DNA from: an uncultured Prevotella sp.
GTDB taxonomy: Bacteria; Bacteroidota; Bacteroidia; Bacteroidales; Bacteroidaceae
Length of the DNA stretch: 33,618 bases
Direction of reading: 5' to 3'
Assembly (NCBI GenBank): GCA_934230115.1
Contig: CAKQEI010000023.1
Span: forward strand, 1-33,618
Shown: in pieces, positions 438 through 20,394 of the stretch
Layout of the letters: each line of letters begins with the position of its first letter
Position numbering within the stretch: position 1 is the first letter of the stretch
The notes under the pieces: model-generated
What the model was told of the DNA's origin: nothing
Seen by the model: the letters and a program-made list of their open reading frames with translations, nothing else
Database searches by the model: none
Translations under genes and position numbers: made by a program

Positions 438-647
438 TCAAACAAACCTTTGTCCTAATTCCGCCTTAATATCTTCCACAATATATGTATCCGACATTAT
501 CTGATACCCATACTTGGGATCGTGAATCTGCTGTCCTACTGTAGAATTGTAGAATATCAGCATAGCACGTTTATTCGATATTTGGAGTTCACTCGCCAAC
601 TGTATTATTATACGAGTTATTTTTCTATACAGTATATAATCTTTCAT
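438..647 (-). CDS. Small DUF3791-like protein (orphan copy)
   Basis: This 69-residue protein starts MKDYILYRKITRIIIQLASE and is about 90% identical to the protein at 2900-3109, including the YGYQIMSDTYIVEDIKAEL end. The pattern (helical N-terminus, conserved MSD.YI..DI..EL end) fits the small DUF3791 family, which often sits next to DUF3990 genes in Bacteroidales; that assignment is from memory of the family. Here the DUF3990 gene is missing: only its first ~10 codons survive just upstream (648-680). The gene may therefore be an orphan partner or immunity-like protein retained after loss of the enzyme. It lies between a 102-base repeat and a glycosyltransferase gene. Its biochemical function is unknown. 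Confidence 0.75.
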   Translation of the reverse strand: MKDYILYRKITRIIIQLASELQISNKRAMLIFYNSTVGQQIHDPKYGYQIMSDTYIVEDIKAELGQRFV

Positions 648-681
648 ATAATGTATTGTTATTCTTGCTCATGTTCATAGT
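648..681 (-). pseudogene. Remnant of DUF3791/DUF3990 junction, deletion scar
   Basis: Bases 652-681 match 3613-3642 almost exactly, the place where the upstream DUF3791 gene ends and the DUF3990 gene begins. Read on the minus strand from ATG at 678 the scar encodes MNMSKNNNTLYERLYTV and then stops, against MNMSKNDNILYHG in the intact gene. About 500 bases of DUF3990 and about 495 bases upstream have been lost relative to the intact cassette. The fragment is not expected to encode a working protein. Confidence 0.75.
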
Positions 682-783
682 AGTACCGTTTTCAGTACCA
701 TCCAACTGGTACTGGAGTTTCATATAGGTGGTACTGGAGTTTCACTTATGTGGTACTGGAGTGTTACTTATGTGGTACTGGCA
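682..783. repeat. 102-base repeat element, left copy (22-base tandem units)
   Basis: Bases 682-783 are identical, base for base, to 4136-4237. On the minus strand the element is a run of 22-base units of the type CCAGTACCACATAAGTGAAA+CT (three units, then a partial). It ends in a perfect 8-base stem CAGTACCA/TGGTACTG with a 6-base loop and a further GGTACT. The left copy lies between the stop of the GT2 gene (812) and the reduced DUF3791 cassette. The element has no long open frame of its own. Perfect identity, while the adjoining cassette copies differ by about 10%, points to recent duplication, gene conversion or selection. Confidence 0.9.
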
Positions 784-811
784 AAGGACTTAAATCCGAA
801 ACTTGAGTTAA

Positions 812-1645
812 TTATATATCCTTTAAGGTTATTTCCAAAGGTTGAATGGTGTATTTTCTTCTGCGATAGGCATTATATATAAACGGAAACAAACTAACGA
901 CAGACATTATCTTTCGCAAGAACGCCATCTTGTTTCTTTTTCTTATTGCCTCTTTAATTTTACTTTCTGATGCACCAAGCATTTTCATTGTCATCAATCT
1001 CTCGTTCCATAATTTCGTAAAGGAATCAAGACGAGTAGAAGCACCCATCTCATTCTCAAACAATGAAATAACTCCATCATATACAACAAAAGGCTCATCA
1101 TTAAGCATCATCTGCATAAACACATAATAATCACCAGCAATTCTAAACTCCGTGGGGAACAAATACTTCTTATGGATTGACAATCGTGCAAAAGTACCTT
1201 GGTGTCTGAATACTGGTCTCTCCCATACATCTTTGTCAGAAGCCTTATACATGCAATCAATATATCCCTCTTTGATATAATTTCTTGTTCCTCCTGCAAT
1301 TAATGTCTCGCCATTGTCGTCATACCATTTGAATACCTCATCGATAATGGTTGGTTTGATAAAGTAATCACCAGAATTAAGGAAAAGAATCCATTCGCCT
1401 GTTGCAATTCCTATAGCCTTGTTCATTGCGTCAAATATTCCCTTGTCGGGCTCCGACACCCAATAAGCAAGCCTATCGGCATAACGCTCTATTATTTCCT
1501 TTGTTCCATCCGTGCTATTGCCGTCAATAACAATATACTCGATGTTCGGATACGTCTGCTTCAAGACATTTTGAATGGTCTTCTCTACTGTGTCCTTACA
1601 GTTGTATGTAACTGTTACTATTGATATTTTGGGAGTTTCTTTCAT
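812..1645 (-). CDS. Glycosyltransferase family 2 (GT-A fold)
   Basis: The 277-residue protein has the GT2 start PKISIVTVTYNCKDTVEKTI, the nucleotide-binding strand YIVIDGNSTDGTKEII (residues ~37-52), the subgroup motif SEPDKGIFDAMNKAI (64-78), and GEWILFLNSGDYF (83-95), where NSGD takes the place of the metal-binding DxD. This combination is typical of the WcaA/AmsE-like transferases of capsule loci. A basic, hydrophobic C-terminus (FLRKIMSVVSLFPFIYNAYRR, residues ~240-262) suggests membrane association. The length is normal for the family. ATG at 1645 lies 4 bases after the stop of the upstream GT4 gene, so translation is probably coupled. It likely transfers one sugar during repeat-unit assembly; sugar specificity cannot be read from sequence. 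Confidence 0.92.
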   Translation of the reverse strand: MKETPKISIVTVTYNCKDTVEKTIQNVLKQTYPNIEYIVIDGNSTDGTKEIIERYADRLAYWVSEPDKGIFDAMNKAIGIATGEWILFLNSGDYFIKPTIIDEVFKWYDDNGETLIAGGTRNYIKEGYIDCMYKASDKDVWERPVFRHQGTFARLSIHKKYLFPTEFRIAGDYYVFMQMMLNDEPFVVYDGVISLFENEMGASTRLDSFTKLWNERLMTMKMLGASESKIKEAIRKRNKMAFLRKIMSVVSLFPFIYNAYRRRKYTIQPLEITLKDI

Positions 1646-1649
1646 TAAT

Positions 1650-2873
1650 TCAGTTTTTAAGTGTTTCGTTATAAAGGGCTATATATTGTTTTGCCACATT
1701 TTCAGGTGCAAACTTTTCTGTAGCCAACTGTCTTATTTCTGTTTGGTTGTATTTATTGCCAAGCACTCGTTTTATTGCCTGGGCTATCTCATACGGAGTG
1801 CCACCACACAAGGCTCCGTTGCCTTCGTCAATTATTTCTGCGGCAATACCAACTGGAGTACTGACAACAGGTGTGCCGCAATACAAGGCTTCAACAACAG
1901 TCTTGCCAAATGACTCTTGAGCTGAAGGCGAGACAAAAGCATCTGAGGCTGAATACACGAGCGACATACGACGGCGGTCGCTAATGGAACCAAGGGTTAT
2001 AACATTGGGATTCGTTATCTCCACATCACATTTGCCTACGCACAAAAGCTTTATGCGTTTGTCGTCTAATATGTCGAGGGCTTCAAGCACCTCCACAAAA
2101 CGCTTGCGCTTCTCGCTCAAAAGACAACATACAAATGATAGCACTATGTCGTCGGGATTTATTCCTAACTCACATCTTGCCTCATTACGCTGAAACATAG
2201 TATAATCATCAGGACTTATGGCATTATAGATGATTGTGTTAGGACGATTAGCAAGAAAATCCACACCATCGCAGAAATGGCGCATTATTTCCGATAAAGA
2301 AACAATAGAGAGATTCGAGCAACTTTCTATGGCATTACGCTTTATATCCAAGAACTCATCCTCCAAGTCGGCAAATTCCTTATAATGAACTTGCTTCGTC
2401 TCGGCATAATGAAAACCTCCAAGTCCGGGATTCTCATCACGCATAGTCCACACTATCGGTTTCTTCACATTCTTAAAGAAAGACGGAATGTCGACAAAGC
2501 CCGATACGAAATGCAGATTGATTACGTCTGCCCATTCCACAAGAGGATGACATGACACGTCGTATTGAGTGATGGGTGAGCTGAACGGTATGGCGATTTT
2601 CTTTTTTATATTGTATATACGTCGGTGAGTCCTGTCGTATTGATTGAGTGTCAGTCCCAGACGGCGAGCTATCTTCTGCAAGAGAACCACGTACTTATTG
2701 CTTCCCCACACATTTTGGTTGGGGTGCATTTCTGTTACTGTAGCATCCTTGCCTTGCTTTATGGCGACAAGCACACGGCTGTCAACGCCTAATTGCAGTA
2801 AAGCTCTATGCTGGTTCATCAATCCCATACCAGCTCCACCACCATCTGTCAGGGCTATATGTAGTATCTTCAT
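1650..2873 (-). CDS. Glycosyltransferase family 4
   Basis: The protein has 407 residues from the ATG at 2873. The start MKILHIALTDGGGAGMGLM is a GT-B N-terminal strand and loop. The C-terminal domain carries SASDAFVSPSAQESFGKTVV and EALYCGTPVVSTPVGIAAEI, the EX7E-type donor-binding region of GT4 enzymes. A longer frame beginning with TTG at 2903 exists but overlaps the upstream stop; the ATG at 2873 is preferred because the remnant at 4196-4354 starts at the matching ATG (MRILHIALTDGG). The gene follows the small DUF3791-like gene by 26 bases and precedes the GT2 gene by 4 bases. It probably transfers a sugar in capsule repeat-unit synthesis; the specific linkage is unknown. Confidence 0.92.
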   Translation of the reverse strand: MKILHIALTDGGGAGMGLMNQHRALLQLGVDSRVLVAIKQGKDATVTEMHPNQNVWGSNKYVVLLQKIARRLGLTLNQYDRTHRRIYNIKKKIAIPFSSPITQYDVSCHPLVEWADVINLHFVSGFVDIPSFFKNVKKPIVWTMRDENPGLGGFHYAETKQVHYKEFADLEDEFLDIKRNAIESCSNLSIVSLSEIMRHFCDGVDFLANRPNTIIYNAISPDDYTMFQRNEARCELGINPDDIVLSFVCCLLSEKRKRFVEVLEALDILDDKRIKLLCVGKCDVEITNPNVITLGSISDRRRMSLVYSASDAFVSPSAQESFGKTVVEALYCGTPVVSTPVGIAAEIIDEGNGALCGGTPYEIAQAIKRVLGNKYNQTEIRQLATEKFAPENVAKQYIALYNETLKN

Positions 2874-2899
2874 AGATTTGCTTATTAATTTTGCTGTAA

Positions 2900-3109
2900 T
2901 CAAACAAATCTTTGTCCTAATTCTGCCTTAATATCTTCTACAATATATGTATCTGACATTATCTGATACCCATACTTTGGATCGTGAATCTGCTGTCCTA
3001 CTGTAGAATTATAGAATATCAACATTGCACGTTTAGTAGATATATGCAATTCGCTCGCCAACTGAATTATTATTCGAGTTATTTTTCTATATAGTATATA
3101 ATCTTTCAT
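2900..3109 (-). CDS. Small DUF3791-like protein, third gene of cassette
   Basis: This 69-residue protein (start MKDYILYRKITRIIIQLASE) is close to the copy at 438-647. An in-frame ATG at 3136 would add nine residues and overlap the DUF3990 gene by 20 bases. The ATG at 3109, 7 bases past that stop, is preferred because the other copy has only this start. No signal peptide or membrane segment is seen, and it is predicted to be cytoplasmic and mostly helical. Its position directly behind the DUF3990 gene matches the usual pairing of the two families. Whether it neutralises, targets or modifies the partner is not known. Confidence 0.75.
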   Translation of the reverse strand: MKDYILYRKITRIIIQLASELHISTKRAMLIFYNSTVGQQIHDPKYGYQIMSDTYIVEDIKAELGQRFV

Positions 3110-3116
3110 AAATAAT

Positions 3117-3638
3117 CTACTTAGTTTCAACTTCAAATGACTTTACAAATCTTATATATCGGTCTATAATTTCTTGATTACTAATACATATTTGATGATG
3201 CAACCGCTCGTTGACAAGTTTGTCCATTGCCATTTCTGCTGTCATAAAACCATCAATATAAGCATCAACAGTAGAAATAACGTGGTCGTTGGCTATTCCT
3301 CCTTCTATCCAATCATATCCAAGCCAAGGCTTCTGCTGTTTACGGCTATGCGCAATAAAATTCAGCCATTCTATATTATATTCAGGAAAAATCTTTACTT
3401 TATACTTATTATCTTCCAAAAATTCTTCCATATCAATACTATAAACATTGACAATAGCCTTAGAATTTCTATGACGTGACGCTTTAGTCACAGACCAATT
3501 TATAGCCTGCTCTTTATCATTGGTGACATAGAAACCTGGACCAAAATCAACAGCAGAACGCCCAACATGAGTTAGAGGTTCAGCAACCTGTATTGTTGCT
3601 CCATGATAGAGTATATTGTCATTCTTGCTCATGTTCAT
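3117..3638 (-). CDS. DUF3990 family protein, ADP-ribosyltransferase-like fold
   Basis: This 173-residue protein has the family hallmarks: NILYHGATIQVAEPL near the N-terminus, VDFGPGFYVTNDKEQAINWS (residues 30-49), EWLNFIAHSR (90-99), YDWIEGGIANDHVISTVDAY (108-127), and HHQICISNQEIIDRYIRFVK (147-166). DUF3990 is grouped with ADP-ribosyltransferases by fold (family knowledge); H12, Y37 and Q155/E156 are candidates for an H-Y-E/Q-like active site, which is inference. The start overlaps the upstream DUF3791 gene by 20 bases (or 14 if the second ATG at 3632 is used), so translation is coupled. Paired small genes on both sides recall toxin-antitoxin or immunity arrangements. Target and activity are unknown, and its presence inside a capsule operon is unusual. 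Confidence 0.8.
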   Translation of the reverse strand: MNMSKNDNILYHGATIQVAEPLTHVGRSAVDFGPGFYVTNDKEQAINWSVTKASRHRNSKAIVNVYSIDMEEFLEDNKYKVKIFPEYNIEWLNFIAHSRKQQKPWLGYDWIEGGIANDHVISTVDAYIDGFMTAEMAMDKLVNERLHHQICISNQEIIDRYIRFVKSFEVETK

Positions 3639-3858
3639 AGTTGTAGAGTGTTTCTATAATATCGTCAGCAACATATTCGGCACTTTGTGTATGAAGCGTA
3701 TCATAGTATTTGATAAGCCTGCCGTCGATAAGTCCTTGTCGCTCCAACCTACGAACAAGTTCCGTCGGAGTGATTTCCATTTTCTTTGCTGCTGTTTCTA
3801 TAGCTATAATGCAGAATTGCATTACATCACTTTCATGTGTGCGTGGACTACCTTCCAT
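3619..3858 (-). CDS. DUF3791 family protein, first gene of cassette
   Basis: This 79-residue protein contains VMQFCIIAIETAAKKMEITP, then TELVRRLERQGLIDGRLIKY, YDTLHTQSAEYVADDIIETL and YNYE, which is the classic DUF3791 pattern (helix, ITPTEL turn, LI..YY..LHTQS..Y..DDI). It is a different subtype from the 69-residue proteins further on. ATG at 3858 is the only reasonable start. The stop lies inside the start of the DUF3990 gene, indicating a coupled unit. A promoter-like sequence lies 22 bases upstream. The function is unknown; by position it is a candidate cognate partner of the ADP-ribosyltransferase-like protein. Confidence 0.85.
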   Translation of the reverse strand: MEGSPRTHESDVMQFCIIAIETAAKKMEITPTELVRRLERQGLIDGRLIKYYDTLHTQSAEYVADDIIETLYNYEHEQE

Positions 3859-3880
3859 ACTTTTATGTTTTTATATATTA

Positions 3881-3912
3881 CAAAAGTACTGATTTTCAAC
3901 CTAACCAACAAT
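3881..3912 (-). promoter_or_regulatory. Promoter-like sequence for the DUF3791/DUF3990 cassette
   Basis: On the minus strand TACTTTTG (3888-3881) is a perfect TAnnTTTG Bacteroidetes -7 box, with ATTG 20 bases upstream (3912-3909) as a weak -33 box. The box ends 22 bases before the ATG at 3858. The -33 part lies inside a 31-base sequence repeated at 4379-4409. The cassette may thus be expressed independently of the capsule operon promoter. Confidence 0.45.
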
Positions 3913-3933
3913 TATTACCTGCGTATTAACACT
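3903..3933. repeat. 31-base direct repeat, copy 1
   Basis: This is identical to 4379-4409. The shared stretch spans the stop codon and last codons of the flippase (ending VLIRR-stop) and about a dozen bases beyond. It brackets the 102-base element and the glycosyltransferase remnant, and probably marks a recombination endpoint. Confidence 0.85.
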
Positions 3934-4073
3934 ATTTTCAATACTGCTCTCTCCTCACTCGTAAGTTCTATGCTACCCTTTGGCGGAACAAACTCAGATT
4001 CTATCTCAATGACAGTTGGTTCACATGTACCGAACTGGTTGATTTCGTTTATCGTCGTCACAAGAAGTTTCAT
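3915..4073 (-). pseudogene. Small frame ending in a flippase C-terminal fragment
   Basis: The minus-strand frame from ATG 4073 to TAA 3915 encodes 52 residues, beginning MKLLVTTINEINQFGTCEPT and ending SIELTSEERAVLKIVLIRR. The last 17 residues match the flippase end (GLTGDERAAIKRVLIRR) at 12 positions, and the DNA around the stop is identical over 31 bases (3903-3933 against 4379-4409). This looks like the 3' tail of a different flippase allele left behind by recombination or replacement. A short real gene cannot be excluded, since its first 34 residues have no recognised relative. Confidence 0.5.
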
Positions 4074-4135
4074 AGGTCATGATACGTTACAACATACTTG
4101 CCTCAATAATTACAATAAGCTTGACGCACGCTCCC

Positions 4136-4237
4136 AGTACCGTTTTCAGTACCATCCAACTGGTACTGGAGTTTCATATAGGTGGTACTGGAGTTTCACT
4201 TATGTGGTACTGGAGTGTTACTTATGTGGTACTGGCA
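4136..4237. repeat. 102-base repeat element, right copy (22-base tandem units)
   Basis: This is identical to 682-783 over all 102 bases, with the same three 22-base units containing GGTACTGGAG and the same CAGTACCA/TGGTACTG hairpin. Here it separates a flippase 3' fragment from the collapsed GT4 remnant. Its outer unit supplies the last 13 codons and the stop of the remnant frame. Confidence 0.9.
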
Positions 4238-4354
4238 GGTAGCCAACTGTCTTATTTCTGTTTGGGTGTATTTATTGCCAAGCACTCGCTTTATTGTCTG
4301 GGCTATTTCATACGGAGTGCCACCATCTGTCAGGGCTATATGTAGTATCCTCAT
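4196..4354 (-). pseudogene. Collapsed GT4 glycosyltransferase remnant
   Basis: From ATG 4354 the frame reads MRILHIALTDGG, then GTPYEIAQTIKRVLGNKY and TQTEIRQLAT, then runs into the 102-base repeat and stops at 4196 (52 residues). The first part matches residues 1-12 of the GT4 at 1650-2873 and the second matches its C-terminal part (source DNA about 1720-1806). Roughly 1 kb between them is missing. The junction lies at CCACCA, which occurs at both deletion ends in the intact gene, and the deletion kept the frame. The N- and C-terminal halves of the sugar-binding cleft are lost, so it cannot be an active transferase. Confidence 0.85.
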
Positions 4355-4378
4355 ATATTTGCTTATTAATGTTACCTA

Positions 4379-4409
4379 AACCAACAATTATTACCTGCGT
4401 ATTAACACT
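4379..4409. repeat. 31-base direct repeat, copy 2 (flippase 3' end)
   Basis: This is identical to 3903-3933. In this copy it contains the genuine stop and last six codons of the flippase gene. Confidence 0.85.
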
Positions 4410-5902
4410 CTTTTTATAGCCGCTCTCTCGTCCCCCGTCAATCCTATGCCATAAATCAGCAATATGGTTAGAACTACGGTTGCTCCGATAGTGGCAATAC
4501 TCTCAAGGGCACTCTCTATATCCAAGAACGAGTGGAGATAGAAACCTGCGGCTGCTATGATGCCTATAACCATAGGGCGTCCGTAAGCCTCGCGTGCATA
4601 TCGCCAAGAGTCGAAGCCGAGCAGACGATGCATCAGATAAAGCTGCACGCCACGCTGAAGCACGTCTGCCACAAGGAATAGCACAAGGATGCTGTAGGCA
4701 GGATAACCATTGTCGAACAATATGTAGCCAACGGGGATGCAAGCGATGAAGAAGGCGCTGGTGTTGACTTTAAACCATTTTATACGGCCCGTGGCGTTGA
4801 TAAGATTGAATATGCCGCCACATGTCAACGACATTCCTCCCACTATAATATTAAGATAGGTGAGCATATATGCCCCATCCGGCACTTTGCCAAGCCAGAG
4901 CCTGAGCACAAAGTCAAGCTCTATGAGCAAAGGGATGCACAAAAGCTCGAACATCAGGATGTTTATGCGCCCTATCTTGTTGCATAGATATGTGCATCGG
5001 TCGTTATCGCCCGCGGCATACGACTGTATTATCTGCGGAGCCGAGGCGCTATCGAAACTGCCCGTAAACGACATTATGCTTTGGTTTACCGTGCGGCTTA
5101 TGGCGAAGGCTCCATTCATAGCCGTGCCAAAGAAACTGTTGAGCAGCAGGTCGCTACCCGACGAACGCACCATATATGCCATAGTGGCAAGCACATTCCA
5201 TCCGCCAAAGCTCAGCACCTCGCGATAGCGTTGCCATCCGCCTACGAACCTATATTTAATAATGTGTGCCCAATTGCGGTAAGCCACCCAATGATACACC
5301 ACAAACGTATTGGCTGTGGTAAGCGAGAATATTATGCTGTAGACACGCAAGGCATAATCGCCATGATAAAGACTGAGCATAAGGATGCAACCCAAGCGCA
5401 CAAGCGAATTGACTATATCCATGACAGCCATAAACTTAAAACGCTCATGGGCTGCAAACAGACTCTGGTAGGGTCCGTTGACGATACCAAGACAAGCCGT
5501 AATGATGCTTATGTGGTATACAAATACAGCATCTGCCAATTTGCCAGGCTCCACGTTGAGCCTGTTGTAGACATACCACAGACCTATTGTCTCGGCAAGA
5601 GCGAAGATGATGATGGCAAGGCAAACGTGCAGCAGCAGGTTGATGTTGAACGAAGCGTTCACGTCGCCATCCTTCTTGCCCATCTCAGTATTGAAGAAGC
5701 GCGACGTGGCACTTGCCAATGAGTTGCTTATAAAGGTAAACATGGCAAGAACTCCACCCACCACGGCAAACAATCCGTAGTCCGACACACCCAGTATCTC
5801 CAACGCAAGACGCGAAACATACAGTCCTATCACCATTGTGGTGAGAAGGCGCACATACATAAACGCCGTGTTCTTGGCTATGCGACGATTAGCACTCCTC
5901 AT
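4391..5902 (-). CDS. Wzx-type polysaccharide flippase (MOP superfamily)
   Basis: This 503-residue, very hydrophobic protein has about a dozen predicted membrane segments. It starts RRIAKNTAFMYVRLLTTMVI, followed by GLYVSRLALEILGVSDYGLF, the N-terminal signature of the polysaccharide transporter branch of the MOP/MATE exporters. The role is to flip undecaprenyl-diphosphate-linked repeat units from the cytoplasmic to the periplasmic leaflet for Wzy-type polymerisation. Length is normal. The ATG overlaps the stop of the Wzc-like gene by 4 bases (ATGA), so it is translationally coupled. It is the last of the conserved core genes; downstream of it the locus becomes a patchwork of fragments. An O-antigen or teichuronic-type exporter of the same family is the only real alternative. 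Confidence 0.92.
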   Translation of the reverse strand: MRSANRRIAKNTAFMYVRLLTTMVIGLYVSRLALEILGVSDYGLFAVVGGVLAMFTFISNSLASATSRFFNTEMGKKDGDVNASFNINLLLHVCLAIIIFALAETIGLWYVYNRLNVEPGKLADAVFVYHISIITACLGIVNGPYQSLFAAHERFKFMAVMDIVNSLVRLGCILMLSLYHGDYALRVYSIIFSLTTANTFVVYHWVAYRNWAHIIKYRFVGGWQRYREVLSFGGWNVLATMAYMVRSSGSDLLLNSFFGTAMNGAFAISRTVNQSIMSFTGSFDSASAPQIIQSYAAGDNDRCTYLCNKIGRINILMFELLCIPLLIELDFVLRLWLGKVPDGAYMLTYLNIIVGGMSLTCGGIFNLINATGRIKWFKVNTSAFFIACIPVGYILFDNGYPAYSILVLFLVADVLQRGVQLYLMHRLLGFDSWRYAREAYGRPMVIGIIAAAGFYLHSFLDIESALESIATIGATVVLTILLIYGIGLTGDERAAIKRVLIRR

Positions 5903-20244: not shown

Positions 20245-20310
20245 TTTCGCGGCAAACCTTTCGCAAGGTTAAAAATAAACAGAAAAGAGGAAATAAGGAA
20301 CAGAAATTAA

Positions 20311-20394
20311 GGGAAAAGTGAAAAGGGAAAAGTGAAAAGGGAAGAGTGAAAAGGGAAGAGTGAAAAGGGAAGAGTGAAGAGGGAAGAGTGAAGA
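20311..20394. repeat. 14-base tandem repeat, six units
   Basis: Six consecutive units of GGGAAAAGTGAAAA drift to GGGAAGAGTGAAGA. The array runs into GAAGAATCATAT, which also follows a related motif at 27168-27183, so the array belongs to a dispersed low-complexity family. Confidence 0.85.

Follow-up and report, generated by a model that had tools for sequence, protein, structure and literature searches.

The repeated element and its surroundings

The stretch analysed here, referred to as the window, comprises 33,618 nucleotides of contig CAKQEI010000023.1 from an uncultured Prevotella sp. (GenBank assembly GCA_934230115.1). It carries two copies of a 102-base element that bracket a GT2 glycosyltransferase gene, a GT4-type glycosyltransferase gene and a DUF3791/DUF3990 cassette (Table 1), an arrangement given in a preliminary description of the sequence and confirmed by coordinates and Pfam matches. 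Direct comparison showed that the copies, which had been called perfect, are identical at 102 of 102 bases and lie on the same strand. On each side the flanking base differs between the copies, so the identity ends at the element's own ends; the outer flanks are unrelated.

The 22-base iterons that had been noticed in the element were recovered by Tandem Repeats Finder (TRF) with a period of 22 and 3.4 copies in each of the two places. With up to 2 mismatches, GGTACTGGAGTNTNA matched seven times in the window, six of them inside the two copies, against an expectation of 0.52 from shuffled sequence. Inverted blocks stand at one end of each copy. This inverted pair, which had been read as a hairpin, is present in both copies, but the fold it gives is not a notable one: as single-stranded DNA the element folded barely better than shuffles (z -1.5 on the plus and -1.1 on the minus strand), in contrast to another array (L005), which folds strongly (z -16). 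Rfam gave 0 matches over the window at the gathering threshold, nothing matching positions 600-4400 was found among plasmids, and viral contigs held no exact match to the two-unit pattern of the window.

Table 1 Features of the repeat region of the window
Feature	Position	Strand	Basis or remark
Array copy 1	682-783	+	102 bases identical to copy 2; downstream of GT2 gene
Inverted block pair CAGTACCA/TGGTACTG, copy 1	693-714	.	Sequence
Four direct blocks TGGTACTGG, 22-base steps	707-781 (starts 707, 729, 751, 773)	+	TRF, sequence
Array copy 2	4136-4237	+	Identical to copy 1
Inverted block pair CAGTACCA/TGGTACTG, copy 2	4147-4168	.	Sequence
Four direct blocks TGGTACTGG, 22-base steps	4161-4235 (starts 4161, 4183, 4205, 4227)	+	TRF, sequence
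DUF3990/DUF3791 start-region remnant	646-681	.	89% identical to 3606-3641; stops where copy 1 starts
GT2 glycosyltransferase gene (context)	812-1645	-	PF00535
GT4-type glycosyltransferase gene (context)	1650-2903	-	PF13692, PF00534
DUF3791-like/DUF3990/DUF3791 cassette (context)	2900-3858	-	PF12668 (below cut-off for 2900-3136); PF13151; PF12668
GT4 remnant, internally deleted	4239-4384	.	Matches 1720-1806 and 2839-2903, 88-95% identical; one base from copy 2

The DNA around the element contains further duplicates, for which a drift of about 10% had been estimated; in our comparison of the window they were 88-95% identical. Besides the 646-681 remnant, the pairs are 435-648 and 2897-3110 (92%), 1720-1806 and 4239-4325 (95%), and 2839-2903 and 4320-4384 (88%). 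The stretch 435-681 is a truncated copy of the DUF3791/DUF3990 cassette that has lost most of DUF3990 relative to 2897-3641, and the short frame within it (438-647) matched no Pfam family. A further repeat (3903-3973 and 4379-4449, 83%) copies the 3' end of a polysaccharide flippase gene (4391-5902).

Relatives of the element in other genomes

In what follows "genus" and "family" are groupings of the genome collection, the name of the family being taken from record titles. The transketolase of the window is 85% identical to proteins named Prevotella sp., with a best match overall of 96%, and its DNA is at most 76% identical to that of any of 301 sampled genomes of the family. A scan of the collection for the core pattern GTGGTACTGG-N12-GTGGTACTGG found 43 stretches in 11 drafts, all of one genus; these are titled Bacteroidales, Prevotellaceae or Bacteroidaceae, and several come from rumen or deer. 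When up to 3 mismatches were allowed, 26 of the 139 genomes of this genus matched, with up to 55 two-unit matches in a genome and 0 matches of the reversed pattern in every row.

Altogether 79 distinct arrays of the window's family were collected, two of them being those of the window. Of these, 17 overlapped crude open reading frame (ORF) calls and 11 lay at locus edges, and these 28 were left out. The remaining 51 were cleanly intergenic: 29 lay between codirectional genes, 20 between convergent and 2 between divergent genes, where random intergenic positions give 55, 29 and 17%. Their median distance was 58 bases to a gene end and 199 bases to a gene start.

Twenty flanking proteins, hand-chosen from 63, were scanned against Pfam. 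A Pfam family was found for 16 and none for 4, and there was no glycosyltransferase among the 20; the families include RsmF-like, MTHFR, QueG-like, PHP domain and, three times, DUF6078. In three genomes (L092, L097 and L121) an array lies directly downstream of a DUF6078 gene. Neither the neighbours nor the dispersal of the arrays thus revealed a special tie to capsule genes. A structured RNA or hairpin signal is a possible reading: the arrays avoid divergent gaps, no Rfam family was found at threshold, and the window copy folds weakly.

A class of arrays with a fixed 22-base period

In other species one convergent locus is occupied by 22-base arrays of differing sequence, and sampling was therefore widened to the genus, family, order and phylum. 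At the convergent locus with 22-base arrays in relatives, L160 (2155-2390) bears a 41-base array of 5.8 copies. The sample consisted of 20 stretches of 20 kb each from the genus, the other genera of the family, the order and the phylum, plus 200 kb of Escherichia coli. The stretches were taken on contigs with earlier matches, away from those matches, which makes the sample less than strictly random; in the order set, at least one stretch (L328, G013) came from a genome drawn for the family as well. A region was scored in the lag spectrum at 28 of 44 matches.

Lag-22 regions numbered 25 in the genus and 17 in the other family genera (400 kb each); in samples of equal size the order had none and the phylum 2, and the 200 kb of E. 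coli had none. The stretches containing them numbered 14, 12, 0, 2 and 0, respectively. With 42 regions, lag 22 was the commonest tandem lag in the 800 kb of the family; the mean for lags not divisible by 3 was 1.0, 1.0, 0.3, 0.3 and 0 in the same five sets. The next lags were 44 (17 regions), 24 (8), and 18 and 21 (7 each) in the genus, and 21 (8), and 14 and 44 (7 each) in the other genera. Likewise, TRF assigned period 22 to 18 of 57 arrays in the genus set and to 14 of 36 in the other-genera set.

The sampled arrays span 3 to 11 unit lengths, and none of the 42 is centred in an ORF of at least 110 codons. Twenty lie in codirectional, 14 in convergent and 5 in divergent gaps, and 3 at edges; the gap background, in the same order, is 43, 22 and 35% by length and 55, 19 and 25% by number. 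When they were grouped with 25 further arrays on the basis of shared 11-mers, 35 clusters resulted; this crude cut may split related arrays. Unit sequences thus vary widely, while the period and the intergenic position persist. A search for a shared end motif with k-mers over the 35 clusters gave weak enrichments alone (e.g. GGAAAA and TTGCCAA). In 20 of the 43 arrays examined the unit contains a dyad of at least 6 net pairs, where shuffles give 5.3%; the unit of the window has none. Arrays of 44 bases, i.e. twice 22, of the AGACCCCACCCCTAACC... type were seen at L186 (4609-4731 and 5601-5764) and L157 (2992-3153), and the window itself holds, at 20309-20392, a tandem array of six copies of the 14-base unit AAGGGAAGAGTGAA with 97% matches. 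Searches of open-access papers brought up none that describes 22-base arrays as a class in Prevotella or Bacteroides.

Turnover and dialects at orthologous loci

Orthologous loci showed that arrays persist while their units turn over. In two groups (F and I; L025/L035 and L019/L039) the units have been inverted, in group C (L006/L012) there is a 22-base indel, and L066 has apparent additional degenerate units. At the E-locus, genomes G004 and G011 have flanks that are 97% identical; the blocks read AGTAC in G004 and AGTCC in G011, in both orientations, and the spacers between the blocks have changed as well.

This difference in dialect between sister species holds for nearly all scored blocks. 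Units of the exact pattern GTGGKACTGNAGTNNTCC read GGGACTG in G011 (7/7) and G351 (7/7), and GGTACTG in seven other genomes (70/70), so that 84 of 84 units from nine genomes agree with their own genome's dialect; these units are not independent, because several share an array. Blocks were also counted over 30 loci, with clusters of fewer than two blocks dropped and locus L028 of G011 counted separately. The AGTCC form made up 25 of 28 blocks in G011 and 26 of 27 in G351, against 3 of 34 in G004, 0 of 30 in G003 and 0 of 7 in G005 (51/55 versus 3/71). The difference is also seen at the orthologous loci L271/L282, L275/L031, L276/L279 and L277/L014. It is less clear at L270/L285 (flanks 78-83% identical), where one AGTAC block remains in G011 and one AGTCC block in G004.

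A tree of transketolase sequences places G004 and G011 as sisters and sets G351 apart, and on that tree the dialect has therefore changed more than once. Two versions of the transketolase gene, the second partial, are present in G011 (C36 and C110; L305-L308). An explanation of the AGTCC dialect by GTAC avoidance was set aside, since G011 retains GTAC in the DNA beside its arrays.

Origin of the identity between arrays

Long identical runs are not confined to the window. Arrays on different contigs share runs of 78 bp (L020/L005) and 73 bp (L001/L022), nearly whole arrays in both cases. At least 60 identical bases are shared by 3 of 78 array pairs in G002 (longest 78) and 1 of 45 in G001 (73), and by 0 of 15 in G004 (longest 37). 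In the window, the identity of 102 of 102 bases is limited to the element and contrasts with the adjacent duplicates, which have drifted by 5-12%. We regard the 102-base repeat as a two-copy case of dispersed intergenic arrays with a fixed 22-base period, and the identity of its copies probably came about by copying confined to the arrays and not by capsule swapping. Such copying would account for the perfect pair of the window, the near-identical arrays elsewhere and the dialects alike. By transposition or gene conversion, an agent would place copies of an array, or of a run of units, over arrays already present or at fresh intergenic positions; the arrays of one genome would thereby drift together and their flanks would not. 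Less securely, inverted blocks would form hairpins near transcript ends, where these might be tolerated or be useful as end signals. A putative role as transcript-end hairpins fits the placement.

The rival readings account for parts of this evidence. The proposal that the repeat serves to exchange glycosyltransferase modules, as a recombination site or homology arm, has one point in its favour in the window, where two identical direct repeats bracket the module and both adjoin truncated copies of the cassette; moreover, any 102-bp direct repeat can recombine. However, scattering over genomes with no link to capsule loci had been named beforehand as the observation that would speak against this proposal, and the core is scattered over genomes. 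None of the 16 flanking proteins elsewhere that have a Pfam family is a glycosyltransferase, and at other loci the arrays stay in place between species. On dispersal and neighbours we rejected a capsule-swap site, which is highly improbable. Plain minisatellites, generated by slippage at hairpins without dispersal and with a period set by replication geometry, would suit the 22-base change in unit number in group C and the many unit sequences (35 clusters in 67 arrays). Yet one unit recurs on many contigs of a genome, near-identical arrays occur at separate places, and dialects run through most of a genome, which makes this origin very unlikely. Alternatively, the arrays may be binding sites for a trans-acting protein (a nucleoid, transcription-end or RNA-binding factor), a step of 22 bases placing its sites on one face of the duplex and the dialects tracking changes in its specificity. 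The exact period despite varied sequence, the likeness of the dialects in forward and inverted blocks and the placement of the arrays all agree with such a factor. It would, however, require dozens of parallel substitutions within the divergence of about 3-4% between G004 and G011 (25 AGTCC blocks, six G011 arrays), for which copying is the easier explanation; the spacers between blocks have changed as well, and the near-identical arrays on different contigs require copying anyway. We consider this reading rather unlikely.

Two further proposals invoke a mobile element. For a dispersed element resembling a miniature inverted-repeat transposable element (MITE), the near-whole identity of arrays between contigs in two genomes other than that of the window (78 and 73 bases) is favourable, but neither a target-site duplication, an empty site nor a transposase was established: no duplication was consistent by eye across aligned arrays, and there was no clean empty site among the loci compared. 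The ends TGCCAG...CTGGCA are common among the arrays and differ from those of the BrickBuilt element discussed below. The other proposal is that the arrays are repetitive extragenic palindromic (REP) sequences or bacterial interspersed mosaic elements (BIME), moved by a Y1 (HUH) transposase of the TnpA-REP/RAYT group (RAYT, REP-associated tyrosine transposase), perhaps of the Bacteroidetes subclass 2.6. Their placement resembles that reported for REPs (PMC3733652). Subclass 2.6 is reported to be found mostly in Bacteroidetes and to have atypical flanking structures that lack the GT[AG]G tag; copies of these structures occur elsewhere in the genome (PMC6006769). PF01797 matched in 15 of 25 genomes, in 14 above the cut-off, and in 3 of 10 Y1 loci (L082, L086 and L088) 22-base arrays lie no more than 1 kb from the gene. 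Against this, 4 of the 11 core-carrying drafts (G003, G004, G010 and G011) gave no Y1_Tnp match, the core of the window's family occurs in 0 of the 10 Y1 loci, and the palindromes that flank the two Y1 loci examined across the gene are different ones, of the GGGC...GCCC kind. The Y1 genes are not tied to blocks of the window's family; a RAYT partner was set aside for this reason, and movement by such a transposase is unlikely. At L082 and L088, where other 22-base arrays are found within 1 kb, short genes resembling Y1 transposases lie between GGGC...GCCC palindromes.

Several observations weigh against copying confined to arrays. In the window both copies abut the points at which cassette copies are broken off, a contact that copying by itself would not predict; a deletion beside the array is one possible cause. 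L001 and L022 appear partly alike just past the array on one side too. Neither an agent of copying nor a target-site duplication or empty site came to light in the material described above. The 3'-end bias, strong in the motif-picked arrays, is weak in the sampled ones (155 versus 206 bases). In that of G119, the sampled genus nearest to the window, few genomes have the TGGTACTGG family (5 of 299; the control matched in one genome outside the five), and homogenisation there therefore rests on the window's two copies. One of the five genomes, G441, has a dialect of its own, TGATACTGGAGTATCATCAGGG, with 18 matches. In 12 chosen genomes of this and neighbouring genera, exact TGGTACTGGAGT gave 11 matches (5 in G630 and 2 in G460) and 6 for the reversed control.

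The dialects raise points of the same kind. Locus L028, on a 4.3-kb contig of G011 (C105), holds 5 AGTAC and 0 AGTCC blocks; it does not match the GTGGKACTGNAGTNNTCC pattern and is hence outside the 84 units. With L028 added, G011 has 25 of 33 AGTCC blocks and is not uniform unless this contig is foreign. The contig is 91% identical to a locus of G007 over 264 bases, and may be foreign, or G011 may be a mixed genome. Contamination or strain mixture in G011 is possible; at the E-locus and L271 it is countered by the G011 contigs, which are 97% and 90-95% identical to G004. The repeated change of dialect rests on one gene tree of draft genomes.

A 22-base period that stays constant despite very different units, is frequent in one sampled family and is nearly absent from the broader samples implies that something measures length and not sequence. 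A bolder version of the copying explanation, which we put forward tentatively and consider doubtful, is that genomes of the Bacteroidaceae type host a sequence-indifferent system that measures 22 bp, builds, inverts and overwrites intergenic arrays to the current dialect, and switches dialect genome-wide within about 3-4% divergence. Since the dialect changes between sister species while the loci stay fixed, concerted evolution becomes open to direct test in a bacterium. Such changes would also suggest that common gut and rumen bacteria possess a copying enzyme or binding factor not yet described. In addition, arrays of this sort can make capsule loci look falsely like sites of module swapping.

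Comparison with known repeat systems

Among known systems, the dialects of the DNA uptake sequences of Neisseriaceae are genome-wide and come with inverted pairs at gene ends, like the arrays described here; they differ in having far more copies, no 22-base arrays and an uptake receptor. The small dispersed repeats (SDR) of cyanobacteria resemble the arrays in being very short repeats dispersed through intergenic DNA, and we know of no constant tandem period common to the whole SDR family. SDR are named in PMC3116915.

The closest known kind is formed by REP/BIME and REPINs with TnpA-REP/RAYT (PMC3733652, PMC3116915, PMC6006769). Like REP/BIME, the arrays are short, dispersed and extragenic, lie in codirectional or convergent gaps, have blocks in both orientations and comprise several families per genome. 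Unlike them, they have a fixed 22-base tandem period, change dialect in place over the whole array and have no consistent Y1 partner; none of the 10 Y1 loci showed a RAYT gene flanked by the core of the window's family. The arrays answer to the definition of REP/BIME as short palindromic extragenic repeats in many copies away from promoters, with the window's own unit lacking a dyad. The GT[AG]G tag, counted as letters on either strand of the unit consensus, was not enriched (10 of 43 unit consensuses versus 23.8% of shuffles); the blocks of the window read GTGG by their letters.

In a related group, the BrickBuilt MITE of Porphyromonas gingivalis and P. gulae consists, according to PMC4596501, of 1 to 22.8 copies of 23-nt tandem units in intergenic DNA, with a long leader and tail and IS5-like terminal repeats (GAGACC...). 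The same paper mentions reported 41-, 23- and 22-nt tandem direct repeats in strain W83, and 22-nt repeats are therefore not unheard of. The arrays share with BrickBuilt the character of an intergenic minisatellite and a similar period; unlike BrickBuilt, with its 23-nt unit, they have a period of 22 bases, extend over 3 to 11 unit lengths and are built from many different unit sequences.

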